From Fibrobacter sp. UWR2 (GTDB lineage: Bacteria > Fibrobacterota > Fibrobacteria > Fibrobacterales > Fibrobacteraceae): a DNA stretch of 64,000 nucleotides. The notes under the pieces are model-generated. The model did not search any database. It worked only from the letters and a program-made list of their open reading frames with translations, and was not told the DNA's origin. Made by a program: the position numbers and the translations under genes. The DNA is taken from assembly GCF_002210285.1 (NCBI RefSeq), contig NZ_MWQE01000003.1, positions 186,001 through 250,000 on the forward strand, given 5' to 3'. How positions within the stretch are numbered: the first letter of the stretch is position 1; each line of letters begins with the position of its first letter. This document shows positions 14,640-52,423 of the stretch, piece by piece.

Positions 14640-17600
14640 ACGATTTCAAGCCGATTAATTTTGGCGCCCTATACATGCCGCTGAAGGAATTCAATGGCCG
14701 TTATGACGGCGTAGAACATGTTATCCGTAATTTTTGCCAGATCGGTACGGGAACGGTAGGCTTTTTGGGCAATATAGACGACTGTAACATTCAAAACCTG
14801 CATTTTGACAATGCCTATGTGAATGCAAAGTCGGCTTACAGGGGGATTGCCGCGGCAGGTGTCGTCGCTGCGATAGCGAAGAACGTGACTTTCGGGAATA
14901 TTTCCGTCGATAGATCGAAGGTGTTTTCCTTTGATGCGGCTGGTGGCTTGTTCGGCATTGACTCTGTGACAACCGCTTCCGCGACGGACCCCCAGTTTGT
15001 CGCTTCCATTCTGCAGGTCGATGTCGAACTGAACGCTCCGATGGCGGGCGGCCTCATTGGAAGAATGACCCACAAGAGTGGATTGCTGTCGTTCCGGTCG
15101 AATACGGTTTCGGCCACCTTTACGGGAAGCGCTCTCGGTACAAGGGCTGGCGGCCTTGTGGGCATGGTGGTGTTTAACGGGTCGATGGCGACAGATACCA
15201 TGAGTGTCGAGTGCGAAGCGAACAATGTCACCTTGACATACGAGGCTTTGCCCTCTAACGACGAAGACCTGTTTGTTGGGGGCCTGTTTGGCGATGTCTC
15301 TCTACTCAAGACCATCAAGGTGTTGAACGGATCGGTAAAGACCCGTATTTCTTCGGCTGGGTACGGAGACCAGTATTTTGGCGGCCTTGTGGGTAGGGCG
15401 AGGATGACGCAAACGAAATCAAATCGCGATTCCGTTGTTGTCCGTAATAATCAGGTGGATGTTTCCATTGCCAGCACAAGTACGAAAAATTTCACTCTGA
15501 CGATGGGTGGCCTCATTGGCTTTGGCGGCGAGTTTAATGACGGAACAAACGATTATGAACGAGGCGCCGTGTATGTATCGGATAACGATGTGGTCACGGC
15601 TTCTATGGAAGCCGCGACTTCGGGCACTGTCTATGCGGGCGGCCTGGCGGGGCGTATCAAGGCCGAAGTAAAAAATGGGACTGCGCCATGTGGAGCATTC
15701 AAGTCTACTTCGACAACGGTTAAGGCTCCAGACGGGCAAGCGCTCATTTCGACTTCGTCGACTGGTGTGCAACAGCTTTATGCGGGTGGCTTTATTGGCC
15801 TTGCTGATTTTTCGGGAGGGGATGTCGAGATCCGCAGGGCGTATGTCGAGGGCGATATCGATATTGCAGCGGAAACAGTTTCCAGTGGAGTTGGCGTGGG
15901 TGGCATGATTGGCAAACTGGACTATTATAGGGCGAACCTGTACGATAACCTGAGTGTCGGGAACATCCGTTCGGGTAGTGATAATGTCGGCTTTGTAATC
16001 GGTTCCTGCTCTTCCGAATTTGTATTTAAAGACAAGATTGTGATGTATGCGAACGTCCATCAGGGTACAGACGATGTCGACGCCAAGGATGCTATGGGTT
16101 CCTTTGCTCTGGCCGGGGGTGCCGTAACGGGTTGGGCGGCCGGTGATGGCTCTGTTAGTGGTTATTCGTATGTATTCAGGTACAATTACCGCAATGCTGT
16201 CGAATCGGGATCTGCCAAGCTGGAGCCCACGGGCCTGCTGGGCTTGAACGGCGACGGCAATATTCTTATTACGAGTTCTACTGGCGCGGTAGTAGATTCA
16301 GTGCAGAACGGTGTGCTCGACGACTCGACAATGGTTTCGCGTGAACTCACCTATATCCTGAGCAAGAAGTCTGTCGACCGCTATGGTTCGGGATTTTACG
16401 ATGACCTTGACTCGAGTTCCTTTCCTGGTAAGGTTTCGTTCATCTGCTGGGAAAGCGAAAAGGGTAAAATCCCTCACGTATGTGAATCGACTACGGATAC
16501 GCGCACTGCGTACAAGGTGGAAATAAGCCTTGCACAAATCAAGTCCAGTTTGTCGGCCGATGATATCGATGCCTTGCAAAAGGAAGGTGTCCTTTATAAG
16601 ACGCCGATATTTGATGGTGGTGGCTTGCCGACAGGCGATAGTAGCTTGAGCCTTATCACCTATTCCGAAAAGGACGGGAGCGTAAGCGCCGATTTTTTGG
16701 ATAAGGTCAAGTTCCTGAGCGCCAAGTACGGAATTGTCGATGCGCTGCAGTCGGTAAATCTCAACTATGTCAATATTGCCGGGGATATTGAATATGGAAT
16801 GGACGTGGATTACATGGTCAAGATTGAATACCTGGTGTATTCGGATGCCCAGGGTGACTTTGTAAACATGGATGACCCTTCGCTTGGGCCGGTGTATTCC
16901 TTGCTGCCCAAGACACAAGTTTCAAGGTACAACTCGACGGACATGGTCCCGACTGCGGCTTTGCTTTCCGAGTCCTTTTCGACGGTTTATTCTGTGGAAG
17001 AAGTTACTATGGAGTGTAATGGAACTGTAGCCAACTGCCCGGCGACTCCGATTGGCGTTTCGGGTATCGTTTCTTACACTGAAGTCCTAGACGCGCTTAA
17101 GGACTATCTCGGCCCGACACAAGAAAATGTGGTGCAATTAAGGTATGTGCACAGGACTCCTTCTCTAATACCGTCCGTCGGAAACACCAGCACGCAGACG
17201 GAGATTACGGTGACCTATTCTGGTTACAAGGAAGGCGTGCACTACGACTACAGACAAGTTGACGTCGATAAAATTAATGAAGGCGGTACAATGATTGCCT
17301 ACGAACTACCTGCCGCCTATAGCGCTAGCGTTGAAACGGGATTTGATTTGCATGGCTGGACGGTTGATTTCTGGGCTTATGCTGTGGGGTACGATAGTGA
17401 TATCCAGGCCTGCTATTTTGCCCAGATGCCTCCGTCTATTTGTGGCACAGAAATAACTGTCAATGCTACGGACTCCTACTTTACAGATGTGAAGTCTTTT
17501 GTCGATACCTTGTCTGCAGCCATGAATACGACCAAGTTGGTAAAATGGACGACGGATATCGATAGCCTTGACCAGGTTTATATGGATAGCCTGGCAAAGG

Positions 17601-20485
17601 CAATCGGAGCAGTCAAGGCCAAGGGCCTTAGCTATGACTACGTCCTGATGTGGACGCCCAAGATGGATGCGATTCCCTACTACATTAATTTCGATGTGAA
17701 CGAGGGTGATTTCCCGGTGTTTATTTCCGGCAATATGAATAATCTGACGACATACTCTAGGGCGGATACCTCGACGGTGAAACTCCCGAAACTGTCCAGT
17801 ACTAAGGCCTGCTTTGACGGGTGGAAGGAAACTGCCAGTGAACCGAGCGTCATTGTTTCCGATGCGTTGAACGCAAATCTCCTGAACAATGTCACTATTC
17901 AGGATGGAACATTTAGCTTGTATGGAAAGTGGAGTACTCCCGAAACGTCGGCCATGTGTTATGATCCGGATACGACCACGATAACGCTGGAATACGCCGG
18001 TGGTGATTCGACCCTTGGCGAAGTCTACCTCTGGCAGGCGTTGGTGAACCCGAGTGATTCCGTGATATTCAGGCACGACTTTAAAAACAATTCAATCGCA
18101 ATCCCAGATTTGAGAGGCAAAAAGGAAGATCGTCCGTTCGTATTCCATGTGGGGTCGGTGCCCAAGCAGGGCTACGTGCTTGCGAATGTAGATGTTACTT
18201 ACTTAAATAGTGGATTTACGCCCTCGAATTTCGACATACTGAACGATGAACTTGTCTACATCTATCCGATGGATGTTGTCGACGGGGTCCTCCTGACGGC
18301 GAACTTCGCCCAGTATGTCGATATAGAACTCGTACTGAACAAGGGAGAGGAAGGCTTGTTCTATGACATGGATTATACGCTGGGTGACCCCTTGACGGTT
18401 ATTGATGATGCCAATAGGTGGTTCGAAGTGCCGACCTGGATCTATACGGCGGACGCCTGCGTGCTGGGCTGGGCCTTCAGCGAAAATGCGCCGACTTATG
18501 ACTTTAGGACCGCTAATTCTGGAAGCGTTATATATCAGGGCGCCAGCGATAAGAAACTTTACGCTGTCTGGGGCGAAGCCGATTCGTGCGTGGCACAGGC
18601 CATGTATGTGAGCGTTACCGCGGAATCCGATAAGGGCAGCCTGGAACTTATCGAATCGGATGCTACGGGGAAATCCCGCGTACACACCTTCGACGTGAAG
18701 GGTAACCGGATTATCTTGCCGCCTATGAAGTTTGCCGGCACGTTTACGGTGCACGGCGTGGGTGAAAATGGCTACAAGCTCGATAAGGTCGAGCTGGACG
18801 AACTGGGCTATGTAACGGAATTTAGGGAGGGCGATACGATTGCCATCTCTGTCGACGGAGCCAAGCTGACGGCCTACTTTGTCGTGGACAATAGCCCTGC
18901 CGGTGGCGAACCCGTGCTGATGCAGTCGGGCAATGCGGTGCAGTTTAACGTGAGTGTCTACTCCTTCGCGAAGCGCGATACTTCCTGGTACCACATCTTA
19001 CTCGAAGATGACGACGGCAACTCGGTTGAAGATACCTTGTTCGAATGCTTCACGAAGAACTGCAATGTCTACTGGGACAAGTTCCCGCTCAAGTCCGGCG
19101 ACTACCTCTTTAGCGCGGCACTGTTCAATGGTGTGGATACGACCATCTTCGAACGTACCTTCGAGGTCAAGAGCGAGATTGCCGTGGGCAAGTCCTGGCA
19201 CATGGTGGCTCTCGCGAGTGCCGATATAGGAAGTTTTGGCTGGGATGGCGACGAGAAGGTGTACTGGTGGAACGAAAGCGCGAACTACGGATCGTACTGG
19301 CAGTACCAGGAACTCACCAAGAAGGGCAAGCCGCAGGTGGGCGTTGGCTATTGGTACAATTCCATCGAGGGTAGGCCGCTCAAGGTGGGCGACAATGCGT
19401 TTGCCGATACCATGACCTGGCAGCTCGATAGCGTGAACACCGGCTGGAACCTCGTGGCCAACCCGTACGGCTGGGACATGGAATTGTATGGCTACGAAGT
19501 CGATACACTACCTATCATGCAGACAATACAGTATGAGCAGCAGGCCAACGGTTATGACGATGACTGGGTTGCCGAACAGATGAAACGTCGCCTTGTCCCG
19601 GCCGTGGAATACAGGAGCTGGAACGAGAAGACGGGCCAGTACGACGAAGTGACCTCCCTGAAGCCATACGAGGCGGTCTGGGTGAAGCTGGTCGATAGTT
19701 CCAGGTTCGACGGGTATCTCTCGCCTTATCCCATTTACATGGATACGGTGCAACTGGACGGCAGTCTCAAGAGAGCAAGGCCGCTGGCCAAGCAGCTGGC
19801 GAAGTCCGGAGTTACAAGCTTGGGCTGGAATATGCGCCTTATGCTCTCCGACGAGAAGGGCAAGAAGGATACCCGCAACACGCTCGGTGCAGGCAAGTTT
19901 GCCTGGAATTTCGAGGAACCGCCTGCCGGCATGGGCGACCGCGTCAATCTCTCTATTCTTGATGGCGGAAAGCGCCTTGAAAAGTGCATGAAGGTCGAAA
20001 CCGAGGGCAATGCGTACGAATGGAACGTGGAACTCTCGGCTACGAGCAGCCGCAGGGGCTATCTGGAAGTTGCGGGCGCCGATGCCCTGCCCGAAAGGGG
20101 CCTGCGCGTATTCGTGACTCTCGACGGCGAGACGCATGAACTCCATGCGGGCGAAAGGCTCCCGGTGGACCTTGCCCCCACGGCGAAGGCTGCGACCATC
20201 CGCGTGGCGCCGGCCGCAAGGAAGGTTGTGGTGCGTGAACTCCGCGGGCTCAACGCTGTCCAGGCGGGCGGCTCGCTCCAGGTCACCTTCGATGCTGCCG
20301 GAATGGGCGGCTCGCGGGCCCAGGTCGACGTGTTCGACATGAAGGGCGCCTCTGTCGCGAAGACGGCCCTCCGGGCGGTCGATGGCCGCAATACGGTCTC
20401 GATTGCGGTTCCGCGACGTGGCCTCTATATGGTCCGTGTCTCCGTGGCGGGCCAGGTCGCCTTGCGCCGGGTGCTCTTTAAGTAG
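14501..20485 (+). CDS. giant secreted surface protein with GLUG-like repeats and T9SS-like C-terminal domain
   Basis: The open frame spans 14501-20485, but the true protein probably joins it from about position 14600 after the signal peptide encoded at 14277. Residues about 100-500 carry many GLUG-like motifs (GGLIGRM, GGLVGMV, GGLFGD, GGLVGRA, GGLIGFG, AGGFIGLA), a solenoid found in adhesins. The middle (about 850-1550) has repeated Trp/Gly-rich modules like Listeria-Bacteroides repeats (DGWKETASEPS, LGWAFSENAPT). The last about 90 residues (VDVFDMKGASV...GLYMVRVSVAGQ...RRVLFK) match the pattern of type IX secretion sorting domains. Expected location: cell surface. Ligand unknown. Transcribed alone. 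Confidence 0.75.
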   Translation: MERPRYGNRIGYTVDSFESCYRGDVLPEDGPGFGGYKDDGSEVTCVNDFKPINFGALYMPLKEFNGRYDGVEHVIRNFCQIGTGTVGFLGNIDDCNIQNLHFDNAYVNAKSAYRGIAAAGVVAAIAKNVTFGNISVDRSKVFSFDAAGGLFGIDSVTTASATDPQFVASILQVDVELNAPMAGGLIGRMTHKSGLLSFRSNTVSATFTGSALGTRAGGLVGMVVFNGSMATDTMSVECEANNVTLTYEALPSNDEDLFVGGLFGDVSLLKTIKVLNGSVKTRISSAGYGDQYFGGLVGRARMTQTKSNRDSVVVRNNQVDVSIASTSTKNFTLTMGGLIGFGGEFNDGTNDYERGAVYVSDNDVVTASMEAATSGTVYAGGLAGRIKAEVKNGTAPCGAFKSTSTTVKAPDGQALISTSSTGVQQLYAGGFIGLADFSGGDVEIRRAYVEGDIDIAAETVSSGVGVGGMIGKLDYYRANLYDNLSVGNIRSGSDNVGFVIGSCSSEFVFKDKIVMYANVHQGTDDVDAKDAMGSFALAGGAVTGWAAGDGSVSGYSYVFRYNYRNAVESGSAKLEPTGLLGLNGDGNILITSSTGAVVDSVQNGVLDDSTMVSRELTYILSKKSVDRYGSGFYDDLDSSSFPGKVSFICWESEKGKIPHVCESTTDTRTAYKVEISLAQIKSSLSADDIDALQKEGVLYKTPIFDGGGLPTGDSSLSLITYSEKDGSVSADFLDKVKFLSAKYGIVDALQSVNLNYVNIAGDIEYGMDVDYMVKIEYLVYSDAQGDFVNMDDPSLGPVYSLLPKTQVSRYNSTDMVPTAALLSESFSTVYSVEEVTMECNGTVANCPATPIGVSGIVSYTEVLDALKDYLGPTQENVVQLRYVHRTPSLIPSVGNTSTQTEITVTYSGYKEGVHYDYRQVDVDKINEGGTMIAYELPAAYSASVETGFDLHGWTVDFWAYAVGYDSDIQACYFAQMPPSICGTEITVNATDSYFTDVKSFVDTLSAAMNTTKLVKWTTDIDSLDQVYMDSLAKAIGAVKAKGLSYDYVLMWTPKMDAIPYYINFDVNEGDFPVFISGNMNNLTTYSRADTSTVKLPKLSSTKACFDGWKETASEPSVIVSDALNANLLNNVTIQDGTFSLYGKWSTPETSAMCYDPDTTTITLEYAGGDSTLGEVYLWQALVNPSDSVIFRHDFKNNSIAIPDLRGKKEDRPFVFHVGSVPKQGYVLANVDVTYLNSGFTPSNFDILNDELVYIYPMDVVDGVLLTANFAQYVDIELVLNKGEEGLFYDMDYTLGDPLTVIDDANRWFEVPTWIYTADACVLGWAFSENAPTYDFRTANSGSVIYQGASDKKLYAVWGEADSCVAQAMYVSVTAESDKGSLELIESDATGKSRVHTFDVKGNRIILPPMKFAGTFTVHGVGENGYKLDKVELDELGYVTEFREGDTIAISVDGAKLTAYFVVDNSPAGGEPVLMQSGNAVQFNVSVYSFAKRDTSWYHILLEDDDGNSVEDTLFECFTKNCNVYWDKFPLKSGDYLFSAALFNGVDTTIFERTFEVKSEIAVGKSWHMVALASADIGSFGWDGDEKVYWWNESANYGSYWQYQELTKKGKPQVGVGYWYNSIEGRPLKVGDNAFADTMTWQLDSVNTGWNLVANPYGWDMELYGYEVDTLPIMQTIQYEQQANGYDDDWVAEQMKRRLVPAVEYRSWNEKTGQYDEVTSLKPYEAVWVKLVDSSRFDGYLSPYPIYMDTVQLDGSLKRARPLAKQLAKSGVTSLGWNMRLMLSDEKGKKDTRNTLGAGKFAWNFEEPPAGMGDRVNLSILDGGKRLEKCMKVETEGNAYEWNVELSATSSRRGYLEVAGADALPERGLRVFVTLDGETHELHAGERLPVDLAPTAKAATIRVAPAARKVVVRELRGLNAVQAGGSLQVTFDAAGMGGSRAQVDVFDMKGASVAKTALRAVDGRNTVSIAVPRRGLYMVRVSVAGQVALRRVLFK

Positions 20486-20493
20486 ACCCTTGT

Positions 20494-20522
20494 TTGCCAT
20501 ACCTGCGCCCTTTTTCTAAATT
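20494..20522 (+). promoter_or_regulatory. promoter TTGCCA-17-TAAATT for the transporter gene
   Basis: TTGCCA at 20494-20499 and TAAATT at 20517-20522 with a 17-nt spacer. The ATG is 10 nt beyond the -10 box, so the transcript would be close to leaderless, exactly as for yceD. Confidence 0.6.
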
Positions 20523-20532
20523 TGGGCGCACT

Positions 20533-23500
20533 ATGACAAAGGCAAAATTCATCAAATTCATCATTGCGTCGGTGCTAGCCATCGTCGCTCTCTTCTTGCC
20601 CTACGAATCCCTCGGATTCGATGCCGCAAGCCCCATGGGACTCCTGAATCCGCTCGAAATCCGCGTCATCGGCGTTTTCGTCATGGCCGCGCTTTTCTGG
20701 ATCCTCCAACCGTTCCCGATTTGGTCCACCTCGGTGCTCGTCATCGTCTTGATGATTGTCACCATGTCGGATTCTTCCCTCATGCCGTTCCGCGTGGACG
20801 GTGTGTCGATGATTAGCCACAAGTCCATCATGGGGACCTTTGCGAACCCCATCATCATGCTCTTCCTGGGCGGGTTCTTCCTGGCCGCTGCCGCGACCAA
20901 GTACAAGATGGACCTGAACCTGGCCCGCGTGCTCCTGAAGCCCTTCGGCAAGAACCCGAAGTTCGTGCTCCTCGGCCTCATGCTCATTACCGCCGTGTTC
21001 TCCATGTTCATGAGCAACACCGCTACCGCCGCCATGATGCTTGCCATCCTCGCTCCGGTGCTCAAGCTCTTCGACGAAGATGACCGCGGTAAGGCCGCCT
21101 TTGCCCTTGCCATTCCGCTCGGTGCCAACATCGGTGGTATGGGTACCCCGATTGGTACGCCTCCTAACGCCATCGCCCTCGGTGCCCTGAACGACGCCGT
21201 TGCCCGTGGCGACCTCGTTGCGAACCCCGTGACCTTCGGTCAGTGGATGGAATTCGGTATTCCGTATGTGCTTATTCTTATGGTCGTTGCCTGGCTTTTG
21301 CTGGTGAAGATTTACCCCATCAAGATGAAGGAGATGGTCCTGAACATCGAAGGTGCCGGCAAGTTCGATACGAGCCCCAAGGCCATCATCGTGTACATTA
21401 CCTTTGCCCTGTGCGTGATTTTGTGGGTGATTGGCAAGGATGGTATCTGGATCATTCCGGGCCATGGCATTAACGATAACTCGATTGCTATGATCCCGAT
21501 GGCCGTGTTTGCCTTGACTGGCGTGATTACCAAGAAGGACTTGAACGCGATGAGCTGGGACGTGCTCTGGCTCGTGGCCGGTGGTTTTGCCCTTGGTGTT
21601 GGCCTCAATGCGACGGGCCTTGCCGCTCACTTGATCAAGACGATTCCGTTTGCAAGCTGGTCTCCGATTGTCCTGATGATTGGCTGCGGTGTCATCTGCC
21701 TTTTCATGGCGAACTTCATGAGCCACACATCCACTGCGACTCTGCTTGTTCCGATTCTCTGCGCCGTGGGTATCGCTTGCCAGGACAATCTCGTTGGCCT
21801 CGGTGGTGTGACCGCCCTGCTCGTGTCTGTTGCGTTTGCTAGCTCTCTCGGTATGAGCCTCCCGATTTCTACTCCGCCTAACGCTCTTGCGCATTCTACA
21901 GGTTATACCGATACCCGTGGAATGGCCATTACGGGCGTTGTCATGGGTCTTGTCGGCCTCGTGCTCTCCTGGGTGATGATGATTTTCCTTGCCAAGGTGA
22001 ACTTCTTCGGAACTCCGGTGCCGAAGGCCGCTGAAGCCGTTCCGGCAGCTCCGGTTGTAGAGAAGGTTGTCGAACAGCCTGCTCCGGAAGCACCTACTGC
22101 AGTCGTTGCCGATTCGTCTGTTGTTGATTCTACTGTTGTCGATAGCGCTGCTGTTGATTCCACGGCTGCTGATACCGCTGTTGTGGATAGTGCTGCCCAG
22201 GCCGCTGCCGATAGCGCCGCCGCCGCTCAGGCTGCCGCTGATTCTGCTGCCGCGAAGGCTGCTGCGGACAGTGCCGCCGCTGCTCAGGCTGCTGCCGATA
22301 GCGCTGCCGCTGCTCAGGCCAAGGCCGACTCCATCGAGCAGGTGAAGGCTGCCGAAGCTGCTGCCCTGGTTGCCGCTGCCGAAGCAAAGAAGGCTGAAGA
22401 AGAAGCCAAGAAGGCCAAGCAGGATAGCATTGCTGCCGCGAAGAAGGCCAAGGCCGATAGCGTCGCTGCTGCTAAGAAGGCTGCCGCTGAAGCCAAGAAG
22501 GCAGAGGCCGAAAGGAAGAAGGCTGAAGCTGCCGAAGCAAAGAAGAAGGCTGCTGAAGAACGCAAGGCTGCTGCCGCTGCCAAGAAGGCCAAACAGGATA
22601 GCATCGCCGCTGTGAAGAAGGCCAAGGCCGACAGCGTCGCTGCCGCCAAGAAGGCTGCCGCTGAAGCCAAGAAGGCTGAAGAGGCCAAGAAGAAGGCTGA
22701 AGCCGAAGAGGCGAAGAAGAAGGCCGCTGAAGAAAAGAAAGCCGCTGCCGCCGCCAAGAAGGCCCAGCAGGATAGCATCGCCGCAGTGAAGAAGGCCAAG
22801 GCCGACAGCGTCGCTGCCGCCAAGAAGGCTGCCGCCGAAGCCAAGAAGGCTGAAGAGGCCAAGAAGAAGGCTGAAGCCGAAGAGGCGAAGAAGAAGGCCG
22901 CTGAAGAAAAGAAAGCCGCTGCCGCCGCCAAGAAGGCCCAGCAGGATAGCATCGCCGCTGTGAAGAAGGCCAAGGCCGACTCCATCGAGCAGGTGAAGGC
23001 TGCCGAAGCTGCTGCCCTGGTTGCTGCCGCCGAAGCCAAGAAGGCCGAGGAAGAAGCCAAGAAGGCGGAGGCCGAAAAGAAGAAGGCCGAAGCTGCTGAA
23101 GCTAAGAAGAAGGCCGCCGAAGAAAAGAAGGCTGCTCTTGAAGCTAAGAAGGCAGAAGAAGCCAAGAAGAAGGCCGAAGCTGCCGAAGCAAAGAAGAAGG
23201 CTGCTGAAGAACGCAAGGCTGCTGCCGCTGCCAAGAAGGCCAAACAGGATAGCATCGCCGCTGTGAAGAAGGCTAAGGCCGACAGCGTCGCTGCCGCCAA
23301 GAAGGCTGCCGCTGAAGCCAAGAAGGCGGAAGAAGCTAAGAAGAAGGCCGAAGCTGCCGAAGCTAAGAAGAAAGCCGAAGAAGAAAAGAAGGCTGCCGCT
23401 GAAGCCAAAAAGGCAGAAGAGGCCAAGAAGAAGGCCGAAGCTGAAGAGGCTAAGAAGAAGGCCGCCGAAGAAAAGAAGGCTGCCGCTGAAGCCAAGAAGG

Positions 23501-24591
23501 CAGAAGAAGCCAAGAAGAAGGCTGAAGCTGCTGAAGCAAAGAAGAAAGCTGAAGAAGAAAAGAAAGCCGCAGCTGCCGCTAAGAAGGCTCAGCAGGATAG
23601 CATCGCCGCAGTGAAGAAGGCCAAGGCCGACAGCGTTGCCGCTGCCAAAAAGGCAGCCGCTGAAGAAAAGAAGGCTGCTCTTGAAGCCAAGAAGGCAGAA
23701 GAAGCCAAGAAGAAGGCCGAAGCCGAAGAGGCTAAGAAGAAGGCCGCTGAAGAAAAGAAAGCCGCTGCCGCCGCGAAGAAAGCTCAGCAGGATAGCATCG
23801 CCGCAGTGAAGAAGGCTAAGGCCGACAGCGTCGCTGCCGCTAAGAAGGCCGCCGCCGAAGCCAAGAAGGCAGAAGAAGCCAAGAAGAAGGCCGAAGCTGA
23901 AGAGGCTAAGAAGAAGGCCGCCGAAGCTAAGAAGGCCGAGGAAGCCAAGAAGAAGGCCGAAGCTGCTGAAGCAAAGAAGAAGGCTGAAGAAGAGAAGAAG
24001 GCCGCAGCTGCCGCAAAGAAGGCCCAGCAGGACAGCATCGCTGCTGTGAAGAAGGCTAAGGCCGACAGCGTCGCTGCTGCTAAGAAGGCCGAGGCAGAAA
24101 AGAAGAAGGCTGAAGCTGCTGAAGCAAAGAAGAAAGCCGAGGAAGAAAAGAAAGCCGCTGCTGCCGCCAAGAAAGCCCAGCAGGATAGCATTGCCGCTGT
24201 GAAGAAGGCTAAGGCCGATAGCGTCGCTGCCGCCAAGAAGGCTGCCGCCGAAGCCAAGAAGGCAGAAGAGGCCAAGAAGAAGGCTGAAGCCGCTGAAGCA
24301 AAGCGCGCAGAAGCCGAAGCCAAGAAGGCTGAAGCTGAAGCAAAGAAGGCAGAAGCCGAAGCAAAGAAGGCCGAGGCCGAAGCAAAGAAGGCTGAAGCAG
24401 AGGCCAAGAAGGCCGAAGCAGAAGCAAAGAAGGCTGAAGGCGAAGCTGCCCCTGCAGCACAGCCGGCCGCAAAGCCTGCCGAAGCCAAGAAGGCCGCTCC
24501 CGCAGCAAAGCCCGCAGAAGCCCCGAAGGCTGCCAAGCCTGCCGAAGCCAAGCCCACTGCAAAGCCGGCCGCCGCTCCCGCCAAGAAGTAA
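20533..24591 (+). CDS. SLC13/DASS-family sodium:anion symporter fused to a long Ala/Lys/Glu repeat tail
   Basis: 1352 residues from the ATG at 20533. Residues about 1-500 form a complete DASS transporter with many membrane segments and both paired family motifs: SNTATAAM with TPIGTPPNAIA, then SHTSTATLL with LPISTPPNALAHSTG. These bind sodium and a di- or tricarboxylate or sulfate. After an Ala/Pro/Val linker with DSSVVDS repeats (about 505-555), about 800 residues consist of A, K, E, D, S, Q and R, with a 58-residue period (DSIAAVKKAKADSVAAAKKA...KKAQQ). Such TolA-like sequence should form a very long single helix or coiled coil, and could span the periplasm or reach the cell wall. The family normally ends after the transporter, so the tail is extraordinary. 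Confidence 0.85.
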   Translation: MTKAKFIKFIIASVLAIVALFLPYESLGFDAASPMGLLNPLEIRVIGVFVMAALFWILQPFPIWSTSVLVIVLMIVTMSDSSLMPFRVDGVSMISHKSIMGTFANPIIMLFLGGFFLAAAATKYKMDLNLARVLLKPFGKNPKFVLLGLMLITAVFSMFMSNTATAAMMLAILAPVLKLFDEDDRGKAAFALAIPLGANIGGMGTPIGTPPNAIALGALNDAVARGDLVANPVTFGQWMEFGIPYVLILMVVAWLLLVKIYPIKMKEMVLNIEGAGKFDTSPKAIIVYITFALCVILWVIGKDGIWIIPGHGINDNSIAMIPMAVFALTGVITKKDLNAMSWDVLWLVAGGFALGVGLNATGLAAHLIKTIPFASWSPIVLMIGCGVICLFMANFMSHTSTATLLVPILCAVGIACQDNLVGLGGVTALLVSVAFASSLGMSLPISTPPNALAHSTGYTDTRGMAITGVVMGLVGLVLSWVMMIFLAKVNFFGTPVPKAAEAVPAAPVVEKVVEQPAPEAPTAVVADSSVVDSTVVDSAAVDSTAADTAVVDSAAQAAADSAAAAQAAADSAAAKAAADSAAAAQAAADSAAAAQAKADSIEQVKAAEAAALVAAAEAKKAEEEAKKAKQDSIAAAKKAKADSVAAAKKAAAEAKKAEAERKKAEAAEAKKKAAEERKAAAAAKKAKQDSIAAVKKAKADSVAAAKKAAAEAKKAEEAKKKAEAEEAKKKAAEEKKAAAAAKKAQQDSIAAVKKAKADSVAAAKKAAAEAKKAEEAKKKAEAEEAKKKAAEEKKAAAAAKKAQQDSIAAVKKAKADSIEQVKAAEAAALVAAAEAKKAEEEAKKAEAEKKKAEAAEAKKKAAEEKKAALEAKKAEEAKKKAEAAEAKKKAAEERKAAAAAKKAKQDSIAAVKKAKADSVAAAKKAAAEAKKAEEAKKKAEAAEAKKKAEEEKKAAAEAKKAEEAKKKAEAEEAKKKAAEEKKAAAEAKKAEEAKKKAEAAEAKKKAEEEKKAAAAAKKAQQDSIAAVKKAKADSVAAAKKAAAEEKKAALEAKKAEEAKKKAEAEEAKKKAAEEKKAAAAAKKAQQDSIAAVKKAKADSVAAAKKAAAEAKKAEEAKKKAEAEEAKKKAAEAKKAEEAKKKAEAAEAKKKAEEEKKAAAAAKKAQQDSIAAVKKAKADSVAAAKKAEAEKKKAEAAEAKKKAEEEKKAAAAAKKAQQDSIAAVKKAKADSVAAAKKAAAEAKKAEEAKKKAEAAEAKRAEAEAKKAEAEAKKAEAEAKKAEAEAKKAEAEAKKAEAEAKKAEGEAAPAAQPAAKPAEAKKAAPAAKPAEAPKAAKPAEAKPTAKPAAAPAKK
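22190..24440 (+). repeat. tandem coding repeat, about 174 bp (58 codons) with shorter sub-repeats
   Basis: Copies of GACAGCGTCGCTGCCGCC and GATAGCATCGCCGC recur at roughly 174-bp steps (for example 22773 and 22947), with insertions and deletions of smaller KKAEEAKKKAEA units. Synonymous variation between copies shows they have diverged while the amino-acid pattern is kept. The 3' end (about 24305-24440) is a simple run of AEAKKAE heptads. Confidence 0.85.
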
Positions 24592-24611
24592 TTCTTCTGG
24601 AGATCGCATTT

Positions 24612-24638
24612 AAAAAGACGCCTTTACGGCGTCTTTTT
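24612..24638 (+). terminator. terminator after the transporter gene
   Basis: AAAAAGACGCC / GGCGTCTTTTT perfect stem with a 5-nt loop. Confidence 0.9.
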
Positions 24639-24674
24639 GTATATTTACAATACACTAAAAACACAGGAGCACAA

Positions 24675-31231: not shown

Positions 31232-32089
31232 ATGGAAAATAAGCGCATACCCTTTGAACAACTCCCCATCACGGACCGTTTCATGTTCGCCATGGTGTTC
31301 AGCCACAAGGAAATCGCCAAGCCCTTCCTCGAAGCTGTGCTTGGCATCAAGATTCACGAACTTAGGGATCCCGAACCCGAAAAGACAGTCGAGGTAAGCC
31401 CTTTCTACAAGGGAATCCGCTACGATGTCTTTGTGAAGGAAACGGGCCCCGGTGGCGAGACCCTCCGCAGTTTCGATATCGAAATGCAGATGGAAGATAC
31501 CAAGGAAATCCCCAAGCGGACGCGCTATTACCAGGCGATGTGCGATAGCGAGTCGCTGAACAAGGGCGAGGTATACTACAACCTGAAGGAACTATACATC
31601 ATGTTCCTGTGTCCCGAGGACATTTTCGGACAGGGAAAAGCCGTTTATAGGTTCAAGAATCTCGAGGTCGACAACCCGGAAATCGAACTGGGTGACCTCT
31701 GCTTCAAAAATTTTTATATATTCAATAAGTACCGCGACGTCGCCGAGAAATCGATCAGGGAGTATATGGAGTATTTCGCCACCAGGAAACCGAGTTCTCC
31801 AGAAACCAAGAAGATTGACAGGATGGTGAAGTGGTACCAGACGGACAACGAAACGAGGAAACGCTATATGACTTGGCAGCAGGAAATCGACATCGCCGTA
31901 GACCAGGAACGCCAGCGTGCAAATGATGCTGAAAGGCGTTATTTCGAGGCGAAGGATCGTGCTGACGAAATTCAGAAGCAGGCAGACGCGGCAGAAGCTC
32001 GTGCTGACGAAATTCAGAAGCAGGCTGACGCAGAAAAGGCTCGTGCCGACAAGTACGAAAAGATGCTCCGCGACCTCGGTAAACTGTAG
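31232..32089 (+). CDS. Rpn/PD-(D/E)XK nuclease family putative transposase
   Basis: 285 residues. Opening LPITDRFMFAMVFSH and KPFLEAVLG, then YDVFVKE followed after 17 residues by FDIEMQ: the D...ExQ arrangement of the PD-(D/E)XK transposase-like family (Rpn, recombination-promoting nucleases). The C-terminal 60 residues are a charged coiled coil with repeated RADEIQKQADA units, a known site of length variation in this family. It follows the 45-bp repeat closely. The ribosome-binding site is weak. Confidence 0.82.
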   Translation: MENKRIPFEQLPITDRFMFAMVFSHKEIAKPFLEAVLGIKIHELRDPEPEKTVEVSPFYKGIRYDVFVKETGPGGETLRSFDIEMQMEDTKEIPKRTRYYQAMCDSESLNKGEVYYNLKELYIMFLCPEDIFGQGKAVYRFKNLEVDNPEIELGDLCFKNFYIFNKYRDVAEKSIREYMEYFATRKPSSPETKKIDRMVKWYQTDNETRKRYMTWQQEIDIAVDQERQRANDAERRYFEAKDRADEIQKQADAAEARADEIQKQADAEKARADKYEKMLRDLGKL

Positions 32090-34137: not shown

Positions 34138-34863
34138 TTAGAGATTTTTTAGTTTGTCGCAAAGTGCGAGAATTGCCGGTCTTATTCTGAAAGATAGACC
34201 GGCCAATTCACTGGATTCCAACAACGGCACGAGTTCACCAAAGGATTCTTCCGTCAAGTTTTCTGCGCAAACTCTCAATTTGTCGACAAGTCCGTCCAAA
34301 TCTTTGGCTGCGACTACATTCTTATACGAACGAGCCTTTTTCAGGCGCATGAGTAAAACGTCCATTCGCGGCACAGCCTTGAACAACGACTCGTACTGAT
34401 AGACGTCGTACAAATCTCGCATCAGTTCTCGTTCGTTCCATGCTGCAATTTTGTGCGCAAACGAAACGCCAGGCTCCATTACGCGAACAATTCTAGCAGG
34501 ACGACCATACGGAGTCGTGAGTAGCGACGAGGACATCGGGATAGACGGGCATTCCTTTTCAGCGTTGATTTCAATTTGCGCCCGCCGCCCGCCGTATTCT
34601 ACGAGAATCCTCAAGGCCTTTGAATTCATGGTAGATTCAAAATGCAAACCGTCAACTCGGGATAAGGCGCCTTCCACAAGGGATTTCGCATCTTTCTTAG
34701 AATCGAAAGGGACGAAGATGTAGTCGACGTCATTCGTGTATCGCGGGCTATGCATCAGCCTGAGCGACATGCCACCCTTGAGAATGGCGGAGTTTCCGAA
34801 ATTGTCGGCGAAAAAATCGACAATCCACGCCAGCAGGGCTTCTGTGCTTTCAATTTTTTCCAT
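34138..34863 (-). CDS. abiEii: AbiEii-type nucleotidyltransferase toxin
   Basis: 241 residues. AILKGGMSLRL and YTNDVDYIF give the GG...(D-x-D) nucleotidyltransferase core of the AbiEii/MenT family, then a helical C-terminal half. Family members modify tRNA or other targets and act as type IV-like abortive-infection toxins. The gene overlaps its partner (AbiEi-like) by 14 nt. It stops 15 bp from the core of cassette 2, so the module fits tightly between two cassette cores. Confidence 0.82.
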   Translation of the reverse strand: MEKIESTEALLAWIVDFFADNFGNSAILKGGMSLRLMHSPRYTNDVDYIFVPFDSKKDAKSLVEGALSRVDGLHFESTMNSKALRILVEYGGRRAQIEINAEKECPSIPMSSSLLTTPYGRPARIVRVMEPGVSFAHKIAAWNERELMRDLYDVYQYESLFKAVPRMDVLLMRLKKARSYKNVVAAKDLDGLVDKLRVCAENLTEESFGELVPLLESSELAGLSFRIRPAILALCDKLKNL

Positions 34864-35455
34864 TTATCGTATTCCTTGCAAACGCTTTGAACTTTGGATT
34901 GGCAAAACTCTCTAGATAGGCGTCGATCTTTTCTTTGGATAGCACGGAATAATTGACATCCTGGAAGATGTTGAAATAAAATTTTTTCTTGTGCTGGTAA
35001 AAGTAGAGTGTGTCGAGCACGGCCTTTTCTGCATCGGCCATTCGCACGCCATTTTCAAGCAGTATTGTTCCAAAACAGAGTTTTGGGGAAATTCTCGCAT
35101 AGGATAGATTAATCTCCCCGACGTATTCGCTCGCCCTTGAAGGAGTCGCGCAACTTACCAGAAAAGGGCTTTCTGTTCCAATGAGTTTGTGGTATGCAAG
35201 CGCGGAACCAAACGTGATGTAAGAATCTGTACGGACCTTAGCGGAAAGGACCTGCGGATCGAAATCGCGGGCGACATAAATTCCGCGACAATAGCGTTTC
35301 AGGAGACCGACCGCCTCGAACTGTCGGACGGCAATCCAAAGCGCCTGTTGGCTAGAAATATCGAAAAGAGAGCTTAGTTCAGAAAGGGAGAAAACCCCGC
35401 CCACCCTCGGAGCGAAATCCGCCAATTTCCCCGTATTTTCCACCGCATTTTTCAT
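34850..35455 (-). CDS. abiEi: AbiEi-type antitoxin/transcription regulator
   Basis: 201 residues from the ATG at 35455-35453; the frame continues to 35506 through AT-rich promoter-like DNA. An N-terminal winged helix (FSLSELSSLFDISSQQALWIAVRQFEAVGLLKRYCRGIYV) is followed by a C-terminal domain with SYITFGSALAYHKLIG and DAEKAVLDTLYFY, as in AbiEi/type-IV antitoxins. It should repress the pair and neutralise the toxin. Promoter probably within 35456-35500. Confidence 0.8.
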   Translation of the reverse strand: MKNAVENTGKLADFAPRVGGVFSLSELSSLFDISSQQALWIAVRQFEAVGLLKRYCRGIYVARDFDPQVLSAKVRTDSYITFGSALAYHKLIGTESPFLVSCATPSRASEYVGEINLSYARISPKLCFGTILLENGVRMADAEKAVLDTLYFYQHKKKFYFNIFQDVNYSVLSKEKIDAYLESFANPKFKAFARNTINGKN

Positions 35456-35500
35456 ATTTACATATAATATAGCATTATTTATACTATATGTCAATATGTA

Positions 35501-35896
35501 ATGCACAAGAAAACAAAAAAAACTACAACCTACGTGAAGTTGCAGGATGCGTTCGTGTCTGAATTAAATACCTCTCTCGGCCAGTTTGCTGTTATTGGCT
35601 ACAAAATGCCTAACGGAAACGTCTTTGAATATACTGATAATGTCGCAAACACGGCAGATGGAACAAGTGCAATTTCTGCTCACGGGACAGCGACAAAGTC
35701 GTGGACCGCGAAGGCTATTGTCGCTCTCAACGACTGTGCCGTCAACTCCGAATGGGGCCTTTTCACTCAAAAAGCCACGGACGGAAACGGGCTTGAATGG
35801 TCTACCGGAATTAAGGAAGGTGCGGCAGTAACTAATAATGCTGCTGACCAAGACTGCGTTGTCCTTACGCCATCATTCAAAACTTTGGCAAAGTAA
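35501..35896 (+). CDS. silent pilin 3' cassette 3
   Basis: The cassette proper starts at the core (35531) and encodes YVKLQDAFVSELNTSLGQFAVIGYKMPN..., LNDCAVNSEWG and DQDCVVLTPSFKTLAK. An ATG at 35501 is in frame (MHKKTKKTTT), but it has no ribosome-binding site and supplies no prepilin leader, so it is probably incidental. Same orientation as the pilin gene: direct recombination with it would delete the DNA between, including the AbiE pair, whereas recombination with cassette 2 or 4 would invert it. Confidence 0.72.
   Translation: MHKKTKKTTTYVKLQDAFVSELNTSLGQFAVIGYKMPNGNVFEYTDNVANTADGTSAISAHGTATKSWTAKAIVALNDCAVNSEWGLFTQKATDGNGLEWSTGIKEGAAVTNNAADQDCVVLTPSFKTLAK
35531..35545 (+). repeat. cassette core site 4
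   Basis: TACGTGAAGTTGCAG on the plus strand at the head of cassette 3; flank ACAACC. Confidence 0.85.
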
Positions 35897-50317: not shown

Positions 50318-50410
50318 ATGAGCGAAAGTAAAGGCAAAATTCTGGTTTTGAGAAACCAACGGGTTGTTTTGGGTTGTGGCGTGGCTGACGGGGGTGTATA
50401 TGTTAACTAG
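50318..50410 (+). pseudogene. truncated ORF6N-domain gene start
   Basis: 30 codons (MSESKGKILVLRNQRVVLG...) with a strong GGAAGGAG site, ending at a stop at 50408. ILVLRNQRVVL matches the usual beginning of ORF6N (phage KilA-type) domain proteins, which then continue for about 100 residues that are absent here. It is probably a remnant left when the following genes were inserted. Confidence 0.4.
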
Positions 50411-50456
50411 ATTTGGGGAAAACGTGCACAACCACAATATCCACGAGAAAGTGCCA

Positions 50457-51758
50457 ATGGAATTAAACATTGAAAATTTCGCGAAGATAAAGTCGGCCAA
50501 GATTAAGTTGGACGGCATAACTGCGATTGCCGGTTTGAACGATACTGGGAAAAGTACCGTTGGTAAGATTCTTTATGGAATTTTTAGTGCTGTTGCCAAT
50601 ATAGATAAGTCCGTTGTTCAAGCGAAGAAGCGTAACATTCGACAAGAAGTCGTTTCGCTTCTTCATCAGAATAATCTGAATTCGCATGGAAGTATATCTC
50701 AAAGTGTTTTTAGATATACGCTAGATTTTATTGAAGAGTTGGTTGTTTCAGAAAATAAAAAAGATGCCGTTGATTTATATCTACGGGATCTTGAAAAAAA
50801 GCAAAAAGAGTTTGAAATTACATTCAATGAAGATTTGAAATCGCAAATTACCGAGTCGATAAAGAAAGTCCTAACTATTCCAGATGAAAAAGTTGCGCAA
50901 TCGGTTGTTTCGCTAGCTTTCCAAAAGATTTTCAATGAACGAATTAATAATATTGACAACCCAGATGCCGATGCTATTGTCGGATTGCTGGTAAAAAAAA
51001 GGTATGTTGAATTAGTATTTAAGGATGATTCTCTTGAGTCCATGCGTAGAGAAATTTCCTTGGTAAATTCCGCCACGTATATTGACAATCCATTCGTATT
51101 GGACCGATTGAATCAATTGACAATTTATGAGAATCGTGAATCTCCATGGGTAAGGGATTTAACAAATAAACTCGTTTCCTTAAATGAGAAAAGAAGGAAT
51201 GAAACCTTAGAGGACGAGGCTCTTTCAAGAATGATTGTTAGCGAGGGCTTGCAAAAGATTCTTGATGAACTGGATGAGGTTGCTCCTGGTTCTATTGATA
51301 ACACCCATGATGGATATTTGTACAGAAGGGGAAAAAGCGGAAAAGCCTTGTCCGTCAATTCCTTGTCAACGGGTTTAAAAGCTTTCGCAATTATCAAACG
51401 CCTCCTTTTGAATCAAGGCTTGAAAGAAAGGGATGTTCTAATTTTGGACGAACCCGAGGTTCATTTGCATCCTGAATGGCAGCTGAAGTATGCCGAAATC
51501 ATCGTTCTTCTTCAGAAAACGTTCAATTTGACTGTTGTTGTGACGACGCACAGTTCCCATTTTTTGGAAGCCTTGGATTTGTATTCCAAAATCCACAAGA
51601 CAAGTGATGTTTGCTCATACTACTTTGCTTCTTGTGGTCAGGATTCTGATTTAGTCTCGTTTGAAAATGTGACGGGGCAATTGGAAAAGATTTACAGCAA
51701 TCTCGTTCAACCGAGTTTTTTTATTGATGAAATCAAAGAAAAACACGGGGTGGAATGA
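50457..51758 (+). CDS. AAA/ABC-type ATPase (SMC-like), first gene of a candidate defence pair
   Basis: 433 residues from the ATG at 50457 (ELNIENFAKIKSAKIKL is the normal start of the family; the frame is open to 50364). Walker A GLNDTGKST at about residue 26, a coiled central region (about 70-250), an ABC-like signature NSLSTGLKAFAII near residue 300, Walker B VLILDEPEVHLHPEW, and a switch TTHSSHFLEAL. It belongs to the OLD/RecF-like AAA_15/AAA_21 group but lacks a fused TOPRIM nuclease. It overlaps the next gene by 4 nt. AT-rich. Gabija, PARIS, Septu and retron defence ATPases are relatives in architecture. Confidence 0.8.
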   Translation: MELNIENFAKIKSAKIKLDGITAIAGLNDTGKSTVGKILYGIFSAVANIDKSVVQAKKRNIRQEVVSLLHQNNLNSHGSISQSVFRYTLDFIEELVVSENKKDAVDLYLRDLEKKQKEFEITFNEDLKSQITESIKKVLTIPDEKVAQSVVSLAFQKIFNERINNIDNPDADAIVGLLVKKRYVELVFKDDSLESMRREISLVNSATYIDNPFVLDRLNQLTIYENRESPWVRDLTNKLVSLNEKRRNETLEDEALSRMIVSEGLQKILDELDEVAPGSIDNTHDGYLYRRGKSGKALSVNSLSTGLKAFAIIKRLLLNQGLKERDVLILDEPEVHLHPEWQLKYAEIIVLLQKTFNLTVVVTTHSSHFLEALDLYSKIHKTSDVCSYYFASCGQDSDLVSFENVTGQLEKIYSNLVQPSFFIDEIKEKHGVE

Positions 51759-52423
51759 TGAGTATGTATGAGTCGTTTGTGAATTTGCTGACAAACTATT
51801 GTCGGCAAGTTGGCTGTCCGATACAAATAGAGAAATCTTTGCAGGATTCATCGGAAGACGATGCCAATGCGGTAAAGATTTTTATGTCAAAATACAAAGA
51901 CTTGAATTCTATTTCGATGGATGCGATTGCTCATGATGTTGTGAGAAAAATTCATTTTGCAGGCACAACAAAAGAGGACGAATCTCCGGCGTCAGTAGAT
52001 TCTTTTTTGATAGATTCAAATGGCTTTTGGTATTTTATCGAATTTAAAAATCAAAAGATTGGCGCGTCAAAAGAAAAGTGCATTGAAAAGTCTTATGCCA
52101 ATGTCTATTGGTTACTGAAAATTTTAGAGGAACTGAAAAATAACGATTCATTTTCGTTCGAATCTTTTAGTTCATGCCCTTCTGGCATTTCTCCACTAAA
52201 TTTTGTCAAAGAATATTGCAAATTTATTTTGGTCATAGCAGATGGTAAAGATGATCTTGAAATATACAAGATACGAGAGGCTAGAAAGGCTAAAAAAAGA
52301 TGGCCTGATTCTGATTGGGCAAAATATATGAAAAAATTAGAATCATATATTTATAAATCTGCAGAAGTGTATAATGTTAAACAGTTTGACCGAGAGTTTG
52401 TTAAAAATTTTAGATACTCCTAA
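51755..52423 (+). CDS. probable PD-(D/E)XK nuclease, partner of the ATPase
   Basis: 222 residues; ATGA overlap with the ATPase gene. SVDSFLIDSNGFWYFIEFKNQK near residues 70-92 has the D-x13-E-x-K spacing of PD-(D/E)XK nucleases, preceded by a helix with DAIAHDVVRKIHF. The C-terminal half (RKAKKRWPDSDWAKYMKKLESY) is basic and helical. No named family recognised. As an ATPase-coupled nuclease it would cut or degrade nucleic acid when the ATPase senses a trigger; this is inference from the gene pair. Confidence 0.6.
   Translation: MMSMYESFVNLLTNYCRQVGCPIQIEKSLQDSSEDDANAVKIFMSKYKDLNSISMDAIAHDVVRKIHFAGTTKEDESPASVDSFLIDSNGFWYFIEFKNQKIGASKEKCIEKSYANVYWLLKILEELKNNDSFSFESFSSCPSGISPLNFVKEYCKFILVIADGKDDLEIYKIREARKAKKRWPDSDWAKYMKKLESYIYKSAEVYNVKQFDREFVKNFRYS

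Follow-up and report, generated by a model that had tools for sequence, protein, structure and literature searches.

RESULTS AND DISCUSSION

A complete DASS transporter is followed by an 865-residue tail

Why would a complete membrane carrier be translated onward, without a stop, into hundreds of residues of little more than alanine, lysine and glutamate? The question is raised by an open reading frame (ORF) on the forward strand of the window, a 64,000-nt stretch of the Fibrobacter sp. UWR2 genome (contig NZ_MWQE01000003.1, positions 186,001 to 250,000), which extends from an ATG at 20533 to a TAA at 24589-24591 and encodes 1352 amino acids (aa) with no internal stops. The original prediction described a complete SLC13/DASS transporter running on through a DSSVVDS linker into a tail of about 800 residues built from few residue types, and this description held: the frame is open, the family models score above their cut-offs, the motif VADSSVVDS, which holds the linker, starts at aa 525, and the 865 residues of the tail (aa 488-1352) comprise 354 Ala, 218 Lys and 129 Glu. 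No Pfam or NCBIfam family was matched by these 865 residues in family-model searches. The data suggest, with a probability that we put at about one half, that the tail is a lineage-variable, TolA-like charged-helix tether which holds or clusters the transporter. If so, the rod would be several times longer than those of TolA and TonB, and it would be mounted on a metabolite carrier. The open-licence literature searched yielded no paper that deals with a DASS transporter bearing a tail or with this protein of Fibrobacter.

The transporter part (aa 1-488, positions 20533-21996) scored 240.2 bits against TIGR00785 (dass; cut-off 198.6), 129.3 bits against PF00939 (cut-off 27) and 140.3 bits against PF03600 (cut-off 31.9), and its closest solved members by sequence are Pho90 and VcINDY (E ~1e-32). 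The AlphaFold2 model of this part has predicted local distance difference test (pLDDT) values of mostly 80-90; its residues 2-488 correspond to VcINDY chain residues 18-462 with Z scores of 33.8-35.5, and the fold over aa 1-498 matches many solved DASS members with Z of ~30-40. Judged by these family and fold matches, the protein is an inner-membrane anion carrier of the DASS family, and its substrate is probably a di- or tricarboxylate; nothing else in the 3.28-Mb genome matches PF00939. It resembles VcINDY, NaCT and Pho90 in the fold, the family models and the first Na+-site motif (SNT, aa 161-163), but differs from them by its 865-aa tail and by the second motif, which in the alignment reads SHT (aa 397-399) where VcINDY has SNT; yeast Pho90 also aligns with SHT there. 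Because of this second motif the Na+ coupling named in the original prediction is uncertain. Arg/His surrogates are reported in DASS exchangers (PMC7553777).

The side of the membrane on which the tail lies can be judged from the end of the transporter. Residue 488 of the model aligns with VcINDY residue 462 in the rows for 5uld, 5ul7 and 6okz, and the last four residues of VcINDY are counted with extracellular/periplasmic surface changes in the VcINDY literature (PMC7553777). Since the transporter ends where VcINDY ends, the tail should be periplasmic. A Lys at the N-terminus and Lys-rich stretches at aa 123-143 and 259-283 fit a cytoplasmic N-terminus. Hence the topology check that had been proposed for this gene places the tail, by homology to VcINDY, most likely on the periplasmic side.

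The tail consists of three parts. A linker of 115 aa (aa 489-603, positions 21997-22341), rich in Pro/Val/Ala and then in DS/DT, is acidic, with net charges of -6 and -5 in its two halves; in the AlphaFold2 model its aa 496-556 have pLDDT <50, so that its first ~60 residues are predicted to be disordered, and helix is predicted from aa 553. It is followed by a charged stretch of 699 residues (aa 604-1302, positions 22342-24438), which is built of 58-residue repeats and phase-keeping variants, is 87% Ala/Lys/Glu, contains no Pro, no Gly and very few Arg, and carries a net charge of +69. A single-sequence AlphaFold2 model of this stretch is helical at model residues 3-211 and 218-702, with a mean pLDDT of ~65 that is no proof of a stable monomeric helix; as one straight helix it would measure 699 x 0.15 nm = 105 nm, in agreement with the predicted order of 100 nm. 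The last 50 aa (aa 1303-1352, positions 24439-24588) form a Pro/Ala/Lys-rich tip of net charge +6, which is predicted to be disordered. The repeats themselves are real at the DNA level (periods of 87, 174, 303 and others), while the count of roughly fourteen units of 58 residues or fewer is better replaced by nine QDSIAA anchors at spacings of 58, 58, 58, 101, 116, 65, 80 and 51, or about twelve 58-residue equivalents. The minus strand holds an antisense frame of 1344 aa (20575-24609) that mirrors the transporter gene; it has no support as a gene and is probably a by-product of the codon make-up of that gene.

The tail carries the signature of a charged helix

In the 699-residue stretch no like-charge pairs at i,i+4 were found, compared with 88 ± 7 expected from shuffles of its composition, and opposite-charge pairs were almost twofold more frequent than in the shuffles at both i+3 and i+4. 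Pairs of Lys with Glu four residues later numbered 97 versus 40 expected, and the i to i+4 K/E order is named as the most stabilizing E-K pairing in an earlier study (PMC5347031). All nine long tails found in the genus avoid like-charge i,i+4 pairs, with none in six of them and one or two in three. The repeats make such counts non-independent, and for this reason distinct 5-mers were also tallied: those of the window tail included 0 like-charge and 20 opposite-charge pairs among 110, and those of all nine tails 9 and 49, respectively, among 264.

The charges are also arranged around the helix. At a period of 3.625, over all 699 residues, Lys is centred at +42 degrees and Glu/Asp at -170 degrees, and the Lys coherence of 0.32 compares with a maximum of 0.21 in 20,000 shuffles. 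Lys and Glu/Asp thus occupy opposite helix faces at periods of 3.62-3.625 along the whole stretch, and the few Ile, Leu and Val residues lie on one edge (R 0.60). The coherence is gone at a period of exactly 3.60, which means that in a helix with strictly this period the faces would slowly spiral around the axis. Neither the heptad (3.5) nor the hendecad (3.67) period of coiled coils was supported in the window tail.

The repeat lengths preserve this arrangement. In genomes with at least two anchors the distinct anchor spacings were 29, 36, 47, 51, 58, 65, 69, 80, 87, 88, 101 and 116, which come close to integral numbers of helix turns (R 0.84 at a period of 3.63, a value reached by none of 20,000 random sets), and with 58, 87 and 116 removed the test still gave P 0.009. 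Repeat lengths that keep phase in this manner clearly mark, at the sequence level, selection for the geometry of the helix, here in a protein of low complexity. Mismatches between the tails of different genomes, scored at the best nucleotide match per 30-codon window in any frame (nearly all were in frame), fell at codon positions 1, 2 and 3 in 4755, 6479 and 13371 cases, although the 72 ordered pairs overlap and these counts describe a tendency rather than a test. Altogether, the charge pattern, the opposite faces, the phase-keeping spacings and the third-position excess make the tail look as if it had been selected as a helix. The main rival explanation is that the tail is a near-neutral expansion, in which recombination between repeats lengthened an Ala-rich stub that is tolerated since it is soluble and helical, and which does little. 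The absence of like-charge pairs, the spacings and the third-position excess argue against such an origin, as does the fact that the order of linker, helix and Pro/Ala-rich tip is identical in each long tail that is read to a clean stop.

Comparison with known charged helices

In TolA- and TonB-like proteins long charged helices in the envelope reach an outer-membrane partner. In domain II of E. coli TolA, which we take to be residues 48-310, like-charge i,i+4 pairs were also depleted (5 versus 22 expected), a trend which is the same as in the Fibrobacter tail but weaker, and the 3.62-residue charge stripe is stronger in the latter. The two share a membrane-anchored Ala/Lys/Glu helix, avoidance of like charges at i,i+4 and intragenic repeats, the number of which differs among strains in tolA (PMC3477136). 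They differ in the anchor, a transporter with many transmembrane segments rather than a single transmembrane helix, in length (699 versus ~263 residues) and in the absence here of TolA domain III. The stretch is also similar to single alpha-helix (SAH) or ER-K domains, which are E/K-rich, have i to i+3/i+4 pairs, lack a strong hydrophobic seam and contain few like-charge clashes; in contrast to them it is ~41% Ala with very few Arg and is fused to a transporter in a bacterial envelope.

The likeness to TolA in composition and charge pattern could suggest that the rod links the transporter to one specific outer-membrane partner, as in TolA-Pal or TonB-receptor pairs, by crossing the periplasm and docking with its tip. 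The tip is kept in the four long tails with a clean stop, and outer-membrane-type proteins are encoded in the genome (eight OmpA-domain matches, and an OMP_b-brl match within the window). However, a Pfam search of the tail gave no match to an end domain of the wall-binding, OmpA-like or Tol/Ton kind, and PF06519 (TolA domain III) had no match either in the tail or anywhere in the genome. The long tails, moreover, measure from 394 to 905 aa, and a straight tail of this size would be many times as long as a periplasm is wide. The unconserved length argues against a fixed bridge and, together with the lack of a folded C-terminal domain, makes a specific outer-membrane partner less likely, so that we regard this explanation as improbable. 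A tail so long and so variable, with no docking domain, favours a charged rod running along or through the wall, or bundled, over a ruler of the periplasm.

Bundling of tails with each other, which would gather transporters into patches without any role of the wall, is a rather unlikely account on its own. DASS proteins are dimers according to a structural report (PMC7553777), which would give two rods per particle, and the opposite charged faces and the edge of Ile, Leu and Val could serve such pairing. On the other hand, the hydrophobic seam is weak, and two of the nine long tails (G009 and G007) lack the Ile/Val-bearing QDSIAA anchor that is present in the other seven.

In the favoured explanation, a TolA-like tether, the C-terminus of the transporter would be extended in the periplasm by a flexible acidic linker, then by a single charged helix that exposes Lys on one face and Glu/Ala on another, and finally by a basic tip of Pro and Lys. 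As a polyelectrolyte, the rod would hold the transporter in the envelope or gather it into clusters, either by binding along or threading the anionic cell wall, or by pairing with the second tail of the transporter dimer, or both, and this binding or bundling could slow the transporter or determine its place. The Lys face and the basic tip would suit an anionic partner. The helix in the cell, the wall binding, the clustering and any effect on transport are inferred, and homology supplies the periplasmic side.

Long tails are rare, variable and recurrent within the genus

The transporter was found at E <=1e-100 in 73 of 80 Fibrobacter genomes, and three tail states were distinguished: the frame stops directly behind the transporter, or it continues into a stub of 36-86 residues rich in Ala/Pro/Val/Asp-Ser (Fibrobacter rows), or it continues into a long Ala/Lys/Glu tail. 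The fusion recurs in related genomes, and the nine long tails (9/73) share a common linker style and Ala/Lys/Glu cassettes; most of the other orthologues in the genus have short stubs, and some stop directly after the transporter. Four long tails can be followed as far as a clean stop and measure 865 residues in this genome (G000), 905 in G030, 708 in G032 and 394 in G009. Four others end at a contig end (G059, G007, G064 and G054), and in G045 the frame is broken within the tail, after which coding sequence in other frames leads up to the usual end.

That the fusion is an assembly join or a misread frame is very improbable. The four genes that run off a contig inside the tail behave as hard-to-assemble repeats would, but in four contigs the tail is covered in full as far as a clean stop, the parts have the same order in separate assemblies, and the stop is followed after ~20 bases by an intrinsic-terminator-like hairpin of 12 pairs with a T run (24611-24639, plus strand), similar hairpins being visible 3' of the stop at other transporter loci. 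The clean stops in four genomes led us to reject an artefact, although the exact repeat number may be wrong in short-read assemblies. Thus, of the two findings named at the outset as damaging to the fusion, orthologues stopping right after the transporter do exist, while the assembly join fails.

Several observations weigh against a tether, in addition to the non-independence of repeated charge pairs and the missing end domains described above. Long tails belong to a minority of the orthologue-bearing genomes, and the 87 genomes analysed from other genera contained none; across the phylum 100 of 167 genomes match the transporter at E <=1e-10, and all open frames from outside the genus have 690 aa or fewer. 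This rarity implies that the transporter works without a tail. The length is not conserved, and one tail has lost its frame. The near-neutral expansion draws its support from the same facts, from the four separate places of long tails on the tree described below, and from block insertions or deletions between near-identical genomes; weighed with the helix signature, we consider it doubtful but a serious competitor.

Copy number does move, as had been suggested from the repeats: the transporter DNA of G032 and G059 is 99.2% identical, and in-frame blocks of 18 and 120 aa distinguish their tails (G059 being cut at its contig end). The repeat number of E. coli tolA also varies between strains, as stated in an earlier study (PMC3477136). 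The lengths of 0, ~60, 394, 708, 865 and 905 residues form a natural series on transporters that are almost alike, and could be used to test directly how a periplasmic rod affects placement and activity. One contig of G030 (contig 19) carries both a copy with the 905-aa tail and a short-stub copy (L120/L121). Tandem DASS gene pairs were also seen in other genera of the family (L157 in G145 and L156 in G136), where one L157 copy ends in a PAPAK/PEAAPAK-type stub.

The DNA of the transporter part was used to build a tree of 66 rows (9 long, 49 short and 8 without tail, the long ones including L003, which is cut by its contig end), after 13 rows had been left out beforehand, namely distant rows, rows with long branches and L061, in which the state of the tail is unreadable. 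Long tails require four changes on this tree, in four separate places, and their origin in a single clade was rejected by the approximately unbiased (AU) test (p 3.7e-50), while the five long genes of the main clade cluster together with weak support (79/53). The tree is equally compatible with repeated gain, with transfer between species and with repeated loss; the tail on a metabolite carrier would have been gained or lost repeatedly within one genus. The repeat is confined to this gene, as a repeat query gave ten matches in its own genome, all in the gene itself, and matches in seven of the 80 genus genomes, all at the place of the transporter or beside its frame break. Downstream of genes with sufficient flanking sequence, 55 of them with a short tail and 11 without any, no clear tail remnant was found; the highest A/K/E share was 0.55, compared with 1.0 in the frame-broken positive control, L076.

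Tentatively, these data could point to an exchangeable envelope tether of Fibrobacter that is tuned by recombination, with a phase-locked helix of up to ~700-750 residues whose length steps keep the faces aligned, and which may place the carrier relative to the wall or to neighbouring secretion/adhesion machinery.

Neighbourhood of the gene and other features of the window

Directly upstream of the transporter lies a giant ORF of 1936 aa (14675-20485, plus strand) with GGLIG/GGLVG-type repeats and a C-terminus resembling the type A sorting signal of the type IX secretion system (TIGR04183, 22.3 bits, just below the cut-off of 23). A member of this family precedes the transporter in all 20 loci compared within the genus, regardless of the kind of tail, and hence does not explain the tail; each of the two G030 copies has its own giant ORF before it. 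The gap is 47 nt here, with a weak promoter-like site at 20494-20522, and 41-310 nt across the loci compared. The constant adjacency would allow a common operon of the giant ORF and the transporter, but the range of gaps and the promoter-like site make this uncertain. Other genera have different upstream genes. Downstream, carB is the next gene in four of the 20 loci (G000, G032, G045 and G026).

Further along the window, a PDDEXK_2-family protein (31232-32086) has short C-terminal tandem repeats of its own (31957-32050), which showed no charge-pair pattern comparable to that of the transporter tail. An AAA_14/DUF4143 ATPase at 29682-30926 matches the PADLOC candidate PDC-S01 with 375 bits, and an AbiEi/AbiEii-type pair is encoded on the minus strand at 34138-35506 (PADLOC AbiEi 189 bits; PF08843 60 bits). 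At 50364-52420 an AAA_15/AAA_21 ATPase, with PD-T4-4_A, NsnB and HEC-02A as its best PADLOC models and AriA lower, is encoded by a gene that overlaps by 4 bases with the next one, whose 222-aa product has no Pfam or PADLOC match; judged by this arrangement, the two genes could possibly form a defence system.

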